A model generated the notes under the pieces. The model saw nothing but the letters and a program-made list of their open reading frames with translations, ran no database searches and was not told where the DNA came from. Made by a program: the position numbers and the translations under genes. DNA of 64,000 nucleotides from Antedon mediterranea. Its lineage: Eukaryota > Echinodermata > Crinoidea > Comatulida > Antedonidae. This document shows positions 1-36,500 of this stretch, in pieces. The stretch spans positions 14,197,201 through 14,261,200 of the forward strand of contig NC_092670.1 of the NCBI RefSeq assembly GCF_964355755.1, written 5' to 3'. How positions within the stretch are numbered: position 1 is the first letter of the stretch; each line of letters opens with the position of its first letter.

Positions 1-1230
1 ATATTAGGCTATATTGTTTTCAAGGTTGTGTTAATATTTATTAATCGTTTTACGACTGCCACTTTCTCTTTCCTATTAACTGATGCTTTTTATACTTATC
101 AGCCGTGTGTACGGGGCGCCATTCGGAACATTGCTAATAAAAACATAATTATGCACCTACATACTTATGATTATTCTACAGTATCGTTCGTCGCCATATT
201 TGTCATTCTGGTTACGTAATGTCTTCGCCATCGTCTTTATGATCGCGCCGCTATTCGCTGACCGCTTTCATCTTATCGTCGCAGTTCATTGAGACTCAAT
301 CGTGGCTCTGAGTCTCTGTCAACATCGCTTCGCAATGAATTGTAAGGAAACAGATTGCGGAAATGTAGAAGGTAATTCGATTTAAAACCTTGTACTTTAA
401 TAAGATAATTAATGCAACTATAAACAGATATATTATTGTTGGTGAAATTTGGTTTCAGTGTAGTATATTAAAGCTTGTTTCCCAGCGCAAGGACGTAAGC
501 CGCAACGCAAGCGATTGACCAATCATAAGAGACATTTCGAATAATCCATCGCGTGTGATTATCGTACTAGTCAATTTGCTTGCATGCGGCTTACGTCCTT
601 ACTTTGCGTCCTAGTGAGAACCAAGCTTAATCAGCAATTAACCAATATTCTCTAACCGATTCTCTTTAGGCCTGGCCTACTGTAACAATAATTCTTAGTA
701 TTGGTATATTCTATGATACATAATTGTAACATGTCTTTCAAGTGTGACGACTGTTTCCTAGACCATGAACAACCTTTAATATAATGCAGGCTACACATGT
801 GACACTGATTACAGAATTTGCCTATAATTCTGGCCATTTAATGTCATAGGAGATACAGAGAATTGGTTGCTTATTCTTCAAAAACAGTTCGATTGAGCTG
901 ATCATTAAATTCGTCACTGCGTTTGTATGCAAACTGTACGCGTTTTAACAGTACTCATTATAGGCAAAAAAGCGTACGTTTCTTTAAATTAAGCTCACTC
1001 ATTCAGTTTTCAACATATGTATATTTAATTCATAAACAATATCTAAGCTGTACATATTTTATTTACAAAGCATTGCAGTTTCTTGTATCTTCTTATCAAC
1101 ATAGAAAAAGCCTAACAAAAACTTGCCAAATGTTATAATAATTATATAGGTTTACTTGCATAGATCTTATTTAGTCCGATTGTTGGTTTTTTAATTATTT
1201 GTGGTCCTTCAGTAAATAAAAATTCATAAT
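1..1230. other. No gene seen apart from one MITE
   Basis: AT-rich sequence with only short ORFs that lack recognisable domains or plausible splice context. Apart from the hairpin element at 468-629 I see nothing assignable. Confidence 0.5.
468..629. mobile_element. Hairpin MITE, family B
   Basis: An imperfect inverted repeat. The left arm begins AAAGCTTG, then GCGCAAGGACGTAAG; the right arm carries CTTACGTCCTT and ends GAGAACCAAGCTT. The centre holds ATTGACCAATCA-type sequence. The same motifs recur at eight or more other places in the window (near 3040, 7632-7963, 8868, 9440, 12849, 18965, 21100, 24065). No coding capacity. The superfamily cannot be told from sequence by eye. Confidence 0.75.
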
Positions 1231-1264: not shown

Positions 1265-1308
1265 ATTTTTCTTATGGATTTCCAAAAATGACTTTTACCC
1301 AGTTTGTA

Positions 1309-1688
1309 GTGATTGGCGTCGGAGCCAACATAAATCCGGTAAGAAGTGTTCTTTTAAACTACGGGTCTGCAGTGATTGGCGTCGGAGCCAACATAAATCC
1401 TACAAGAAGTGTTCTTTTAAACTACGGGTCAGCGGCGTGATTAGCGTCGGAGCCAACATAAATCCTACAATAAGTGTTCTTTAAAACTACGGGTCAACCA
1501 TGATTGGCGTCGGAGCCAACATAAATCCGGTAAGAAGTGTTCTTTCAAACTACGGGTTAGTGGTGAATGGCGTCGGAGCCAATATAAATCCTACAAGAAG
1601 TGTTCTTTCAATCTACGGGTCTGCGGTGATTGGTGTCGGAGCCAACAGAAACCCTGTAAATAATGTTCTTCTCCACTTGTTATGATGC
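1309..1688. repeat. 63-bp tandem array copied from the C1q exon 3' end
   Basis: Six head-to-tail units begin at about 1309, 1372, 1437, 1500, 1563 and 1626; five are 63 nt and one is 65 nt. The unit at 1626-1688 is the genuine last part of the C1q coding exon on the minus strand. The others lie beyond the stop codon (1613-1615). Read on the minus strand, each unit encodes a near copy of the terminal peptide (RTLLTGFMLAPTPIT), and most end in a Asp-Pro-stop or similar. The period equals 21 codons, so adjacent units stay in one reading frame except for the 65-nt one. Confidence 0.95.
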
Positions 1689-4600
1689 AACTTTACCTTA
1701 GGATTCAGATGTAGCCATATTCTATCCCCTTTTACAAGAGTCAGTATAATACTGCTTGCTGTTGAAGTGCGCTCGTTCGGCTGCGCAAAATCGTCAATCG
1801 CCATTATGAACTCATCGTTTTTGTGTAGGCGCACTGACGGATTCTTCATGACTTTATTTTTATAAACATGTGTACTGAAGTAGTAGGTTCCATTTAGCGG
1901 ACATGTATACGTTCCGGTATTATTATCGAAGTCGTTGCCTACATTAGCGTAGACAATATTGAAAGTTATTGCCGTGTTGTTTCTTGTTGAATCCGGTAAG
2001 ACGGGAGTACCGCGTGCCGCTGAGAAAGCAGACGTACGGCCGCCGTGTAATGATGGTAGAGCATATGTCTCCACGTACGACGCTGGATTTCTTTTGCCTG
2101 CTAGTTCAACTTCACAGGTACATGTACCTTTTTCACCTTTCAATCCATGAAAACCTGAAAAATAACGCTAGAAAACTTAATTATTGTGTAGACCCTCCTT
2201 GACGAGGGTAGGTTGAAGGGTGGGGGAGAAAGATGGGTTCGCCTAACTAGCTTTGTGCAGCTGAACCGTAGTGGAGTTCAATCCGTCCAATCCCAAGGTA
2301 CAGGGTTCAATCGTGACCTAGTGTCAGGTTTGTAGACTGACTCAACTCTTCAACACTCCACTCTCAGCCTCTAGTTTATAATCAATAATTTTATAAAAAT
2401 TAAGGTTTATCCTAATTGGCAAGTTTCTCTCCGTTGGATAATTATTTGATATTTTAAAGTTTCTTCGAAGAGTCTTAATTGGCCTTGACAGAGATGAAAC
2501 TATAATAATGTTACATACACGTCGTTACATTAATGTTAGGCCTCTGATTGAGAACGGCGCCAAAGATGACGCCAAAGATGACAAAAAATGAAAATCATGT
2601 TTATTGAATATGACATCAACTGTCCATGCCAAGTTATGGAGGAAGCAAATATAATATAAAGTTTAGGTCTAGAACCCCGAATATTGGCTTACAAAACCAA
2701 TGAAATAATACAGGACGAAAACAATTTCAATATCTAAGAATTTGAATAAATTTAGTTTAGCATCATCTTACCAATAGGTCCAATTTCACCTTTTTGTCCA
2801 ACCAACCCATTTTTACCCGGTATTCCCTGAGGTCCTGGGCGACCGGGTGATCCTCTGCAACCTTCTATACCTATGTTGAAAAGACAAATTGATAATGAAA
2901 TATATTAAGATTCCACTAGAACGTGATGGAAGGACGTATAAGACCGAGTACAACGAACGTTCAAATGATGCGTTGCTAGCATTTTTAAAATCGCACTGTG
3001 TCCATAATACCTTTAAGTATGCAGCGCAATGTTAAGCGCACAACAAGTAATTTAACGTACCAATCACGACGCATGAATCATCCGAGCTCTAACTTTTCAT
3101 TTCGTTTACGTTGCGTTCTAGTGGAAACCAACTTTAGGATAATTGGAGATCATCAAACCAATACGAAATACGTCATATTAAAAGCGCCATGCTTTGCTAA
3201 TAATATATGATGCCGAAATGCGCCACTCGGTGAATCCGTGTAGCGAAATGTTTGGTAGTAAAGTTTGACTACGTTGATGAAGAGTTTTACGTCACTGTCA
3301 AATGGCTTGTTATTTTACTCGGTAAAAAAAAAACAGGTATAAAGTACCGATAACAATTATTACAGGTGTTTAACAGGAGTTCACCATTTGCAATTATGAC
3401 CTGATTTTAGATGATGTAGGGCGGCAAGGAGAACTCTTTATCCATATAGGCTACTTCCTTGTTTATGTAGCCTTTACCGACTACATGTATGCAAATAAGC
3501 TAGTTTATTTATAGTAACTATATTGTTCAAAGATAGTTGGGTGGTTAAAATGAATGTTCGAGCAGCCAATTTAAAGCTGTCTACACTATCAAACTAGTTT
3601 GATAAAAAAATGTGTGATGTGCCCAAATTTGGTGATATGCTCAAATATGGTAGTGATATGACATCATCATGTCACATTTTGTTGTAGTGTAGACCGAGCT
3701 TAAACCTACCCTTTTTAAAGATGCTCTTATTTTTGGAACTTACGCCAATGGAGAGCAGGTGTTTCAGCTTAAAGTTTATGAAAAAGTGTTTAGCCCTATA
3801 TGTGAAGAATGAAAGTATCGAGCTATATTACAACCAAGGATATAATGTGCTCCACCAGTAACTACCTGGTGAAGAAATGAGAAGATTGAACCGTGTGAAA
3901 AGTCAATGAGGTACATCAGTGAATGAATTCCAGATACGTAAAAATATTCCAAGGTAAGTCCTAATTAAACTTTTATTCAAATACAACGATCATTGTACTA
4001 AATTGTTTCCGATTCGGGTGGGTGTTAAATGCATTTATGTCTGTATTAGTATGTATTACATTACATTCATAACCACCATAAAAGTAGGCTACGGGGATTC
4101 ACATCATTAAGCGATTCTTATCTTTAAAAACAAGCCTTCCTTTTAAATAAATATCAACATATCTGTTTTCCTCATTCAGTTTTATATTAATGGGGTATTG
4201 TTCGTATATAAGTGCGTTAATGTCCTGCTTAATGTCTACTGAGGTAGTAATAATATTACCTCAGTAATACCTCAGTGTTATATAATATAAAACCATCTAA
4301 AAGTGACACACCCCACTAATGCATTGCATTGGTGGCACCATAAAGAAATAAGTTAGGATTATTTCTCCGTGGTGGCACTAAATCCAATAAAAAAGATGGC
4401 GCGCCGAACGATATGTTACAAAATGATATTTCAAAAAAAAAAAAACCCTGATTGATACTGAGTAACAATTCTATACTTCAATTAAAATTCATAAATGACT
4501 GGATAATCGTTTTTTATAATAATGGTAATCAGACTATTTTAGAGTAAGTTTATTTCTTTGGCACCCGGGTGAGTATGATACATACTCGGGTAAATCCATG

Positions 4601-5450
4601 ATATGGATATCCATGTTATTAAGTTATATTTAAGTTCAGACAACTAACAGTTTCTTTGGCACCCGGGTGGGTATGATACATACTCGTGTAAATAACGATC
4701 AAGCTTCGACCGGCCTTAGGCACAGAAGAGAAAAACTGAAAAAATGCATTACACCCCTTGATATACGTATCATGCTATTAAGTTATATTTTTTGACAGTT
4801 TACGGAAATAACATTTTTCAAAATACTTTCTTAATCAATAAAAACGAATGGAATGGAAATTCAATATCTTTATTCATGTCTTTCTTGTCGGATGTTTTGT
4901 TATGATCTTCGCGTATACCACCGCGAGAGTAGGCCTACATTTATTGGAGGCTTGCGATAGGTAGGTTAACATAATCATTCCCATGGTAAAGCTGTTTTCT
5001 ATTTCACCCTCCGCTAAAATACCCGTAACGGTCATTAACTGTGAAATCAGTCGCATGGTTTCCCATGCCTTGTGGTTTCTTTGCAATAAACAGATAACAT
5101 ATCATTATGATTTATCCTCTATAATATACATTTTGAATATAGCACTTTAAATGAACTTACGGATGTCAAAGTTGGTTACATAAAAAAAAACAGCGGACGT
5201 TCCCCTTCTCCCTTGAATCGTCAAAAGGATACTTACCTGGTGATCCTCGTGGTCCTTGTATTCCCTGGACCCCTGGTATGCCCTGCGGTCCCTGTGCACC
5301 GTCATAACCTCGCCGGCAAACATTTGAGCCACATGATGACGTTGTTGGCGATACAGTAGACGCGGCATTTTGTAGACGTACAAGTGAAGCTGTTACGCCG
5401 TAATTCCATTTGTTAAATGACAATAGACATATCAGTATCAATGAAAACAT
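1613..5450 (-). CDS. Secreted collagen-like/C1q-domain protein (3 exons, 284 aa)
   Basis: Coding exons in transcript order are 5450-5237, 2870-2772 and 2154-1613; they total 855 nt with matching phases (1, 1) and GT/AG introns. The start ATG (5448-5450) opens a short hydrophobic N-terminus (MFSLILICLL) that looks like a signal peptide. A Gly-X-Y collagen-like stretch follows at about residues 48-116, crossing both introns, with Cys40 and Cys45 just before it. A C1q globular domain lies at about residues 145-280, with family-like segments such as SAFSAAR, GTYTCPLNGTYYFSTHV and FTGFLLAP. C1q-domain proteins of this build trimerise through the collagen and head domains and bind ligands outside the cell, often in innate immunity; the ligand here is unknown. 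The 3' end runs straight into a 63-bp tandem array copied from its own last codons (1309-1688). Fusing domains this way is usual for invertebrate C1qDC genes. Confidence 0.92.
3571..3703. mobile_element. MITE, family A (copy 1, intron 1 of the C1q gene)
   Basis: About 130 bp with inverted ends: AAAGC.GTCTACACTATCAA at the left and GTGTAGAC.GAGCTT at the right. The interior has GATGTGCCCAAAT, ATGGTAGTGATATGACATCA and similar blocks shared with six other copies in the window. It lies in the intron between exons 1 and 2 of the C1q gene. Confidence 0.8.
4549..4775. repeat. Imperfect direct duplication (~95 bp)
   Basis: The block TTTCTTTGGCACCCGGGTG plus GTATGATACATACTCG occurs at about 4554 and again at about 4650. 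Each is followed by a TATTAAGTTATATTT segment (about 4617 and 4775). This looks like a diverged tandem duplication within the C1q gene intron. Confidence 0.55.
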
Positions 5451-14924: not shown

Positions 14925-17908
14925 CTATAAACACGTTTCATCTTCAAATATAGCAAAATTATCATCTATTTCTACTTTCCCATTGATATTAATATCGTAA
15001 GTACTTCCATTATCAGTTGCATTTTTGGAATTATTATCAACTACGTATACATCCCGTGCTGATGAATTTAACTGTTCAAGTTCAATCGGTTCGTGACGTA
15101 ATATAACCTGACGAATTTTCTTCCACGATCCAAGAACCGATAAAAACACAGGCAAGAAAATGAGTCCGTGTATCACACCTATAACAGTCACTAAGAATAT
15201 GATTTTGAACACTGCACTTAAAATGTACGTGCTAGCGTTGCTGAGGGCTAGAAGTCCTAAAACGGTTGAAAGACCTGCCTGTAGCATTGGCATTCCAACC
15301 GAGTACAACGCATATATCGTTCGCTTGTTGCCCAGTTTGTATGGGGCTACAGAGTACGTGTACGCTATATGAGCAGAGAAATCAACACTGAAGCCCGTGC
15401 TAAGTGTCACAAAAATACTAGATTGAAAATCTAAGTTTATGTTCCATGCCGTCATAAAGCCCAACACTCCAAGCTCAATAGAAATGATGGTGAGAACGAC
15501 CCAAAGCGAAACAAGTGGTCTTGGAATTAGAAGTAATGAAATAAATAACATGGCGATTGCAGCGTATATCATATTCTTAATCGTGTTGGGTAATATAAAG
15601 AAGTATTGATCATAGTAAATGAATTCTGGATTGAAGACATGCATTGGAAGAGTTGATTGTTCAGCTAGATCTCGAGATGTCCTCGCAAGGTCCTGTTCAC
15701 GACTAGAAGTATCGATGTCTTTTGATAAAACGTACGCTCGAGATGCGAGTATACCGTCATTTCTTTCGTTAAAAACTATATCTAGGTTATACTGTAAATA
15801 TCTAGGATCTGCCAAGAATCTGCTTAAATTACGCATGAAATCCTGCTTTGCGATCGCTTGAGGATTATTCAAATATGCTAAATAATCCTTCAGCCAAAAC
15901 GTAGTGAACCGGTGAGGGTGATATAAACCACTTGTTTCAAATTGAACAATATCATAGTTTATTTGGTCTTGAACAGATTTATTCCAATACTCGAGCTCTT
16001 CGTCAAAGAATATGCAAATCTGTGCGCCAAACAGTTTAAATTTGTCTGCTTCTAGTGTGTAGTAGCGTTCGATGGCAGTATCTTTCGGGGCTAATAAACG
16101 TCGCTCAATTCCTATTTTCATTTGAGTTATAAATAATATTGAAATCGACAGATATCCTAAGTAGATGAACAGTACAAATAATTTTGTCCATCCATTCATT
16201 AAAAACTCGCCATATACGTCCCTGAAAAACTTCATGATGACATGGGGATGTTTTTCTTGGCCTCCAATGTCTAATTTATCAGAACCGCCAGAACAGCAGA
16301 TCTGATATGCGGTTGATGTCGATTTGTTTTTTGGAAGTACTGGCAAGCACGTGACCGCGTGCCGGTTAGCTCGTTCGCGCTTCCCGGTAAGAACCATGAA
16401 AGCTGAGAAAAATGTCACCTGGTATGCAAAATCAAACATAACAGCTACACCTGTGTATAAACAAAATGCTTGTACTGCAGGGAATGGCGATATTCCGCCG
16501 AAGGCAAATGCCAGTGTGTTGGTTAGACTTGTTATTGTGATTGAGAGGGCTGCCTCTTGCATCGCTTCTCCCATTCGGTGTTCAATCTTTGCTCGAATGC
16601 TGGTCTTTCTCCAGGCCGCAATAAGGATGAACATGTCGTCAACACCAACGCCTAAAACGTGGAAAGATAAGGAAAGAAAGCATGAAATTACGTTTTAATG
16701 AAGTCAAGGAAGAAGTGGGGAGAAGGAGTACCAGTGAGTAGTATATTAGTCTACCCACTGGAAGAGGGAGAACACAGACTTTCATAAAATGATGATGTAA
16801 TGCATTACACTATAATTACAGTACTTTTAATTTGCAGCCTTGAACATACTGGAGAGCTTGCAAAACAAACATTTTGTAAAACGTTTATTTAGTAGCTTCT
16901 TATTACCAGAAATTATGGCCTACACGCATACTTACTTATAACAAGCACTGGGGTTGCAGTAATCAGTACATTGAATTTGACTCCAAAGTAGCTCATTAGC
17001 CCGATTGTAGACAAAGTCGCTAGGCCGGCTGACACCACACCTAGCAGCGCCAATATCGGTTTATTCTGTGCACAGTCAGATTTCGTGCTACTCAACACAG
17101 AAAATGTCACTAGGATTAATATACATAAAACAATTTGTGGGTTGGTATCCTCCCTAGCCTGATCAAGAGCTTTAGAAAGTGACGATGACGCCGCACCATA
17201 TGCCTCAACTTCTGTTGATTTCAGTTCATCTATATACTTGATAAAATCCTCCTCCCATTCGTAACTGCTAGGCATTGAAGACAATGCATAATATAGTCTA
17301 ACAGCTGTGCCGTTGACTAGTTGGTTTCCATTCACTATCTGCACGCCTCCAATTGATGAACCGATAAAATACGGTTTATTGGCAAGTACTCCATCAGGGT
17401 ACGTTAGAGTCATGTGCTGATCTTGACTGTTGAGGTACTGAAACACGTCAATGATATCGTTAGACGGACATCTTCCAAAGTACATCAGGCACAGAGATGA
17501 ATACGTTCTTTCGTCAATACTTTTAACTTTAGTTTTAATATCTTGGTCTATTCTTAAAATATCCCGAATCGCATCTATGCCAATGATGCTCTTGCGTGGG
17601 TCTTTGATAACTAGTATGACGCTTGCAGTTGCCGTAGGTCTTGTTAAGCGATTGGCTAAAGTGCCGTTCACAGTCATTGTGTCGTTAAAGAACGTTTCTT
17701 CAAGTTCTCGTTCAAGTTTACCATCACTTTGATCAGGCGTAAATAGTGTTTCTGCGTCTGATTCTATTTCTAGAAGTGCGATTCCAGCTCCCAATATGCC
17801 AGTCACCACAAGGGAGACGATCACGACTAGCAGAGGGTGTTTAGCAAGCCAACAACCATAAGCATAATACATACGGGCCAGCGGCCTTTCTATACAATCT
17901 GCCTTCAT
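14925..17908 (-). CDS. Patched-domain (RND-type) membrane protein, 2 exons, 899 aa
   Basis: Coding exons are 17908-16936 (973 nt) and 16651-14925 (1727 nt), separated by a 284-bp GT/AG intron; together they give 900 codons including the stop. Residues 26-46 form the first membrane segment and are followed by a large extracellular loop. A cluster of membrane segments starts near residue 260 (a sterol-sensing-domain-like block). The intron splits the Ser codon of the conserved ISVGVDDMF motif (about residues 324-332). A second loop and a second membrane block (GVLGFMTAWNINLDFQSS; VTLSTGFSVDFSAHIAYTY) give the duplicated RND topology. Length and motifs fit the Patched-domain-containing (PTCHD3/ptr-like) family rather than Patched itself, which is longer, or NPC1, which has an extra N-terminal domain. 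Such proteins act in the plasma membrane or cilia/flagella; the substrate is unknown. No break is seen. Confidence 0.92.
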
Positions 17909-18255
17909 GATGAATCAAAACTGTCAAACCTATAAGAACAAAAATAAGGGTTACATTTTACCCGATGTCTCCAATAAAATAGTAATATTTAATTGGTAAT
18001 ACAACATAACTTGTGTTCACATGGACTATTTTTCCCCATAACATGATGATACAAAAGAGATACTGTAATAAATTTTTCTTGATCTGCAATGACGTCATTG
18101 ATTGAATGTAATAGAGCATTTAAACACACAGGTTTTCTTTCAGAAACTATAAATTAGCTGTAAGGCTTCCGTTGCATATGTAATATACGCATAATAATCA
18201 GTAGGCTATAGTATAACACGAATGATAAACCAGCACGCATTTATTTGTCGAGTAC

Positions 18256-33249: not shown

Positions 33250-33592
33250 TTGTACTAACAATGTCTTTTATGAGAATCAAACTTGCACTACATGTTAGCG
33301 TTTACAGCAACCGATATAATTATCACATTCGTAAGTTTTTCTATTGAGCTACGTCAAGAATTTGTTTCCACTGGTCCATAGCATTGCCGTAGACAAGTAC
33401 TTGATTTAGTAACTCAATAATAACAATCATGGTCTCAAAATATGCTCTACATTTTTTTTTTTATTTACAGCACCAAGGGAAACATGACAGCCAGAGATTT
33501 GCTATAAAATGCCTAGAATCATCACACATTTACCAATTCCCATCCTTTTTATACTTTCAGAAAATAAAGAATATATCTACAGACCTGAAGTC

Positions 33593-36500
33593 ATGAAAAC
33601 CTGTATTTTTTTACTGATTTTATCTACGTATTCCGTAGTAGGAAAACCATTACATTTCAACTCATACGATTTATCAGCTGGAAAATTTAAATCATGGGGA
33701 CTTAGTCTGAAAACTCTGGACTGTTTTGCGTGCAGGGTTGCCGTGAAGGAGATTGATGACCTCATCAAAACAAACGCTACTAAAGACGATGTTGCAAAGT
33801 TGGCAACAGATATTTGTGATTTACTTCAAATCGAGACTGATCGCGTTTGCGAGTACATTGTCAGAGAATTTGAGGTACGGTATACGTCTTGTTTTGTTAA
33901 TTCATAAACACCCTTGGAATGGCCCAAAATGTAATAATTTTAGACAATTATTACATTTTTAAACTATTATTAGACTTGTTAGTTGTTTTTTATGTTGTAT
34001 TCCTTTATGGTCATTTTCAAGTATAGGTATTGTACATACAGTATGACACGCCATGTATCCAAAAATATTTTCTTTAAAGCTCAGATACAGGCATGAATTT
34101 TAAATATAATACTGGTTAATTGTACATAAATCAAATATTTGTAACAAAAATCAAGACGAAAAACATGAATTTCCTTTAATATGGTCAAATACAACATTTG
34201 GAAAAATTCTTCTATAAAAACCAGGAAGACCTTTTTTCAGTAGTTAGATAGTTTAACCTAATGTAATAACATGTCTGGTGACTCCCTAGAAGGTGAAAAA
34301 AGATGGTGGATATACGGTGGATAATTTTTGCTATTAATAGCATGAAAATAAAAATCTGAAGTTGAATAAAAATATCATAATGTAAAATTCAAGTTATTTT
34401 ACCTATATTTAGTCATCTGATAACATTTTTTATAACACCGTTTATTTTTCATAGCTTTTTAAAATGCCTCTCTATTTACAAAATTTGTGTACAAAAGAAT
34501 AGGGATTTTACTGTGTAATTTGAACTATCCCCCCACTGATAAGAAAGTGCTTATTTTCAACAAGATGTAACAGAAATAAAATCCCCAAAATTATGAAACA
34601 TAGGGGAAACTATAGATCGATAATTATTGGGTGATCAATAGAAATTTTTTGCCCGCACCTGGCCTTTAACAATTGCTGTCTACAACCTAAACTAGTGTAT
34701 ACTTCTTAGCATACATTTTCCTATTCTTGCACCTCATAGACACATAAACACCAACTATTTACCCGACCCATTCAAGTCTAATATAGTAAAACTCATTTTT
34801 TAATTTCAGCCTGAAATATTTGGAGTGGCCGTAGGTGCTGTTATTTCACCAGATGAGTTGTGTACGCGGTTGCTGGGAGTGACCTGTGGTGACCCTTCAG
34901 ATCCTGGTAGTCCTTGGAACGTGACGTTTCCCAATATTCCCAAGCCTACACCAACCCCTCCAAAACCACCAAAGGTAAATATACTATTTAGAATGCGATT
35001 GATTGATTTATTCATTAAAATCACAGAACATGAAACAATGACAAAATTAGACAATGAACAATCCATAATATTTTTAAAATAAAATGTGAAAAATCGGGAG
35101 AACGCAAACACAACCAAAGATGCTACCGATAAAGGTCTTCAAGCAGATCAAACAAATAATAATAAAATTATTAAAAGTCAGTGTGACAGTTACCTTTGAT
35201 CGTACTACTACAATACTGTATTACAGTTACTGCAGTATCGATATAGTTTCTGTAGTACTGTACAGTATTATTGCAGTTTCTATAGAAAATTAATTTCAGA
35301 AATCTTTTCCTTTCAATTCACAAAATATATTTTATGGGTTGTTTTATCATAGATTAGTTTCATTTTTTATATCCAATTGAACTCTGATCTAATTACTTAA
35401 TTATTTAATTACGAGATAAAACTGGAATGTGTTATATATTATTAATATTTCTTGTTTCTAGGCTGGCTCTCCTACACTGCGTATTTTACATTTGACAGAT
35501 CTGCACTATGATCGACGCTATAAGGTGGGGTCAAATGCAGAGTGCGGAGAACCTTTGTGTTGCCGTGACAATGACGGACCACCAGGTACAACTTGTTTGA
35601 TGCATAATTTAAAAAACTTTAAACATTTTTAATGTATATTATTTATCCAAATTAAATCTTATCATGTTCAGGAATTTATGTTTGAATAAAATGTAGTCAA
35701 TTTTTTGCTAATCATTTCATTTTCAGCTAAGGGAGTGGCTGGAGCAGGAGCATGGGGTGATTATCGGTATTGTGACAGCCCTAAGTGGCTCATCATCAAC
35801 TTGCTTGAGCATCTATCATCCACTGAAAAGGTAACTTATCTAAGCTGAATTACACAAATTCAGAAGTCATAGATTTTATTTTTAGGCATATTTCTAAAGA
35901 ATGGCAACCGTTCATTTGACCACTAATAAGTAGCATGTGCTTACATGACTACACATACTATACAAGATGATGTATATAAACAAAAGTACTTTCTGTTTTT
36001 TTAGCGTGTGCAAAAAAATGATGATGTCATATCACTACCAATGGGCACATCACATCCATATTTAGGAACTTCACACTTTTTTTGTCAAACTAGTTTGATA
36101 GTGTAGACAGAGCTTTAAACAGGATTTGAATCTAGGACTGGCTGTCAAAATACAGTATATCTCCACTTCAATGAATTCATTTTTTCCTCTCTTTATTTTT
36201 TTATATAGTTTGATGCAATTTACATGACAGGGGATCTTCCAGCCCACAATGTTTGGAATCAAACTAGAGACGATGAATTAGAAATCCTCAATGAAGTGAC
36301 AGACATGCTTCTAAAGTATTTCCCAAATACCAAGATATTCCCAGCTATTGGCAACCATGAAAGTGCCCCAGTTAATAGGTATACATTTAGTAACAACACA
36401 AGAATATGTTGAGTTATTCAAAACTGCAAACAAAGTTGTATTTTTGGCAACCAAACAATCTCATTATCAATTGCCAAGCCTACAAAATCTGACTTGGCTG

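Follow-up and report, generated by a model that had tools for sequence, protein, structure and literature searches.

The 63-bp tandem array at the end of a collagen-C1q gene of Antedon mediterranea is an ordinary minisatellite that derives from the last (~17) codons of that gene. With high confidence, we regard it as a neutral minisatellite of the 3′ untranslated region (UTR), produced when a tandem duplication spanned the end of the C1q coding region, the first unit (U0) being under selection and the later copies (U1 to U5) drifting. More specifically, a short tandem duplication with its breakpoints close to where the C1q coding sequence stops would have created the 63-bp minisatellite. Slippage or unequal exchange would then have raised the number of copies to about six, partly in blocks of at least two units. 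U0 would have gone on encoding the last strand of the C1q domain and its tail under purifying selection, and the copies past the first stop, most likely 3′ UTR, would have drifted neutrally. Coordinates are those of the window (the whole stretch of DNA that was analysed, 64,000 nucleotides) unless another locus is named.

The host, a collagen-type C1q immune gene, lies on the minus strand; its spliced model joins three coding exons at standard splice sites, stays open and in phase, and encodes 285 amino acids. The first coding exon (5237..5450) carries the start codon, a probable signal peptide and the start of the collagen-like region, and is followed by donor GTAAGTAT; the second (2772..2870) continues the collagen-like Gly-X-Y pattern in phase between acceptor ...AACATAG and donor GTAAGATG; the last (1613..2154) completes the collagen region and encodes the entire C1q domain, with the stop TAG at 1615-1613. 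The product has the two components of a collagen-C1q protein, namely 23 Gly-X-Y triplets (residues 48-116) and a Pfam C1q domain (PF00386; 88.6 bits against a cut-off of 23.7, E 5e-25), and the C1q domain of the host exon matches the heads of cerebellin-1, adiponectin and C1q in the PDB. The gene is intact, and its C1q domain ends in U0. In gC1q structures, the N- and C-termini are both located at the base of the trimer that faces the collagen. A genome search for the C1q exon listed 61 places, the host exon among them, and the nearest relative is 46% identical. The signal peptide-like start, the Gly-X-Y region and the C1q domain contained in a single exon are shared with collagen-C1q proteins of invertebrates and vertebrates; the tail APTPITADP beyond GFLL, however, is longer than that of most paralogues in this genome, which stop 1-4 residues past GFLL.

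Within an intron of the C1q gene, a stretch at 2911-3135 is bounded by inverted arms TTCCACTAGAACG / CGTTCTAGTGGAA; it resembles another stretch at 470-630, bounded by inverted arms AAGGACGTAAGCCGCA / TGCGGCTTACGTCCTT, and both look like non-autonomous inverted-repeat elements. Elsewhere in the window there are exons of a Patched / sterol-sensing-domain protein (14925-17914, minus strand) and an exon that encodes a saposin B type domain and perhaps a signal peptide (33488-33907, plus strand).

The array occupies 1302-1669 on the minus strand, with 5.7-5.8 copies of the 63-bp unit. Tandem Repeats Finder places it at 1309-1670 (period 63, 5.7 copies, score 496, 85% matches) and gives a second row for it with a 128-bp period. 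Chance falls far short of explaining the array, whose head-to-tail units are of minisatellite size (~10-100 bp). The six units start on the minus strand at 1669, 1606, 1543, 1480, 1415 and 1352, and are 78-94% identical in pairwise comparisons, those with the partial U5 left out. U0 (1607..1669, 63 bp) consists of the C1q C-terminus RTLFTGFLLAPTPITADP, the stop and 6 nt, and is the genuine end of the gene, reading ...RRTLFTGFLLAPTPITADP-stop. Then follow the full copies U1 (1544..1606) and U2 (1481..1543), each of 63 bp with TAG at the end in register, U3 (1416..1480, 65 bp), in which a 2-bp insertion shifts the continuous frame, and U4 (1353..1415, 63 bp), with TAG at the end in its local frame. 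U5 (1302..1352) is partial, with 51 nt of homology, and lacks the TAG, its frame running 10 codons into unique flank. The sequence-only reading, which had seen the array as copies of the final C1q codons with a single unit off length, is confirmed on both points, U0 being the gene's own end and U3 (+2) alone among the full units departing from 63 bp. Misassembly is possible in short tandem arrays, which are generally known to be prone to it, and the copy number could be suspected on that ground; here, however, the six copies are all different and the array (0.37 kb) fits in one long read, so that an artefact of assembly is extremely improbable.

The array is confined to a single locus. Searches of the 354-Mb genome with the array, one dimer and a core 19-mer (up to 2 mismatches) found no second locus, and a dispersed satellite is ruled out so far as these searches can see. 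Minisatellites are frequent in this genome, and therefore one that overlaps a gene end is unsurprising: counting arrays whose period is 15 or more and whose copy number is 3.5 or more, there are 4 in the 64-kb window and 12 in 99 kb of sequence surrounding other C1q exons, many of the 12 having an 18-bp period and possibly being collagen-coding repeats. The closest paralogue (L003, 1985-2188; G000 C1, about 33,279,924-33,280,127) has an array of 33 bp x 6.5 at ~85 nt beyond its stop, and another C1q gene (L004) is followed at ~1 kb by one of 110 bp x 5.1; both are unrelated to the 63-bp array. A 1.2-kb array of 18 bp x 66 is found downstream of yet another C1q exon (L011, 2158-3350; G000 C9). 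The literature titles and abstracts searched held no account of the 63-bp array.

Under the gene model the coding sequence holds U0 only, and U1 to U5 lie 3′ of the first stop. U1 and U2, which stand in the continuous frame of U0, read RTLLVGFILAPTPFTTNP-stop and then RTLLTGFMLAPTPIMVDP-stop. The local frame is common to the units, with the core RTLL(V/T)GF(M/I)LAPTP kept, and U0, U1, U2 and U4 have the TAG in register; in U3 it is present as CCCGTAG, out of the running frame, and a further stop immediately precedes the RTL motif of that unit. The proposal that all units carry the same frame, usually followed by a stop, is accordingly right unit by unit, but the insertion in U3 moves U4 and U5 out of the continuous frame, and the stop is out of the running frame in U3 and missing from U5. 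Several units in one open frame, as in a coding repeat, are not found in the array, given the TAG of U0, U1 and U2 and the 2 extra bp of U3. Because of the stops in U0 to U2, and the stop and insertion in U3, the protein cannot be extended by the array; and since only one unit is translated, a period of 63 bp has little meaning (a 1-in-3 chance). On the opposite (plus) strand one frame stays open over 1261-1440 and 1485-1685, with a repeated GVGANINP...; this open antisense frame of the array simply results from the 63-bp period and is broken by the same 2-bp indel.

Downstream copies could also reach the protein by splicing, if acceptor-like TTCTTGTAG/G, present in the three units U1, U3 and U4, allowed the end of the C1q exon to be exchanged for an alternative last segment, and a donor-like AAG/GTAAAG does exist in the C1q exon upstream of U0. 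However, this donor is in phase 0, and joining the acceptors in the unit frame would take phase 1, so that the product would read DLYWLRR..., which is not a C1q strand; U2 and U5, moreover, lack the AG. Splicing into the unit acceptors was ruled out on phase, and there is next to no chance that the array supplies alternative ends in this way.

Beyond the array, the minus strand has two possible poly-A signals, ATTAAA (1190..1195) and AATAAA (1063-1058), both of them pattern matches only. Their positions are consistent with a 3′ UTR containing the array, and U1 to U5 are most likely part of it. A location between the stop and possible poly-A signals would also suit a regulatory array, acting as structured RNA or as repeated binding sites. 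Yet the predicted fold of the array does not stand out against shuffled sequence (z -0.48), no Rfam family exceeds its threshold (the search of the array gave one row only, far under its gathering score), and the shared core is accounted for by descent from coding sequence; a regulatory function is thus very unlikely.

The pattern of substitutions points towards neutral drift of the downstream copies. Over the unit codons (51 nt, with few changes), mean pS is 0.126 and mean pN 0.146 within U1-U5, and the differences between U0 and U1-U5 are mainly synonymous (pS 0.314, pN 0.163). The comparison of synonymous and nonsynonymous differences between units, which the sequence-only reading had put forward as a check, detects no codon-level constraint on U1-U5, at low power, and locates the synonymous excess between U0 and the rest. 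More specifically, U0 differs from the U1-U5 consensus at 9 bases and 3 amino acids where 5.8 amino-acid changes are expected, for which a neutral simulation that ignores the shared history of the units gives a one-sided P of 0.03. These figures support, rather than prove, a constraint limited to U0. Some of the differences among U1-U5 are conservative (V/T, I/L/M), which is what a hydrophobic codon set would lead one to expect, though it may also reflect weak constraint. Neutral growth of a 3′-UTR repeat, one of two outcomes considered from the letters alone, is favoured by the in-register stops, the frameshifting indel, the lack of detectable constraint on U1-U5 and the position of the array before the possible poly-A signals.

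The other outcome, in which the array changes the C-terminal strand of the C1q domain, would make it a reservoir whose downstream units diversify the C-terminus by recombining with U0, through unequal exchange or gene conversion. The common local frame and the preserved core would fit such a role, and exchange among the downstream units has probably occurred, judging from codon 5, where a GTA/ACC difference runs V-T-V-V-T along U1-U5 (a dimer pattern), and from the 128-bp period, which suggests block duplication. U0, however, is an outlier: its average distance from the rest exceeds that of any other full-length unit, and at least six alignment columns (7, 9, 10, 18, 22, 36) carry base states private to it and absent from U1-U5. 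Since conversion would erase such states, nothing points to exchange into U0, and no recent conversion of U0 by U1-U5 is seen in this one genome assembly. The bias of its differences towards synonymous changes likewise opposes the idea, and the stop in each full unit restricts the exchangeable part to 17-18 codons at most. We consider diversification of the C1q C-terminus by the array highly improbable.

The flank past the last copy continues the unit frame (...PITTNWVKVIFGNP-stop / TTNWVKVIFGNP-stop), and the TAG of the other units sits in a junction segment of 11-12 nt that matches neither flank clearly. If a simple tandem duplication is assumed, the flank after the last copy would be the ancestral 3′ flank, and the candidate ancestral C-termini would be ...ITADP-stop and ...ITTNWVKVIFGNP-stop. 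The birth of the array might then have altered the protein, the stop in U0 being a by-product of the duplication junction and an older tail having been trimmed, a scenario that we regard as unlikely; alternatively, the last copy may have decayed.

With its 63-bp unit, about six imperfect copies, signs of block duplication and single locus, the array resembles ordinary minisatellites at gene ends, from which it differs in that the founding unit takes in a gene's stop and the codons just before it, so that the array starts in coding sequence. With coding minisatellites such as the Prdm9 zinc-finger array (PMC3890296), it has in common a unit that is a multiple of three and an origin in coding DNA; here, by contrast, the first copy alone is translated, each full downstream copy has a TAG and one copy shifts the frame.

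Beyond annotation, the importance of the array is small. It cautions that a repeat of coding origin that looks in-frame need not encode protein, and offers a clean example for comparing constraint between a coding founder and its untranslated copies. If the stop in U0 was indeed made at the duplication junction, the C1q gene would be a minor instance in which a minisatellite reset the C-terminus of a protein.
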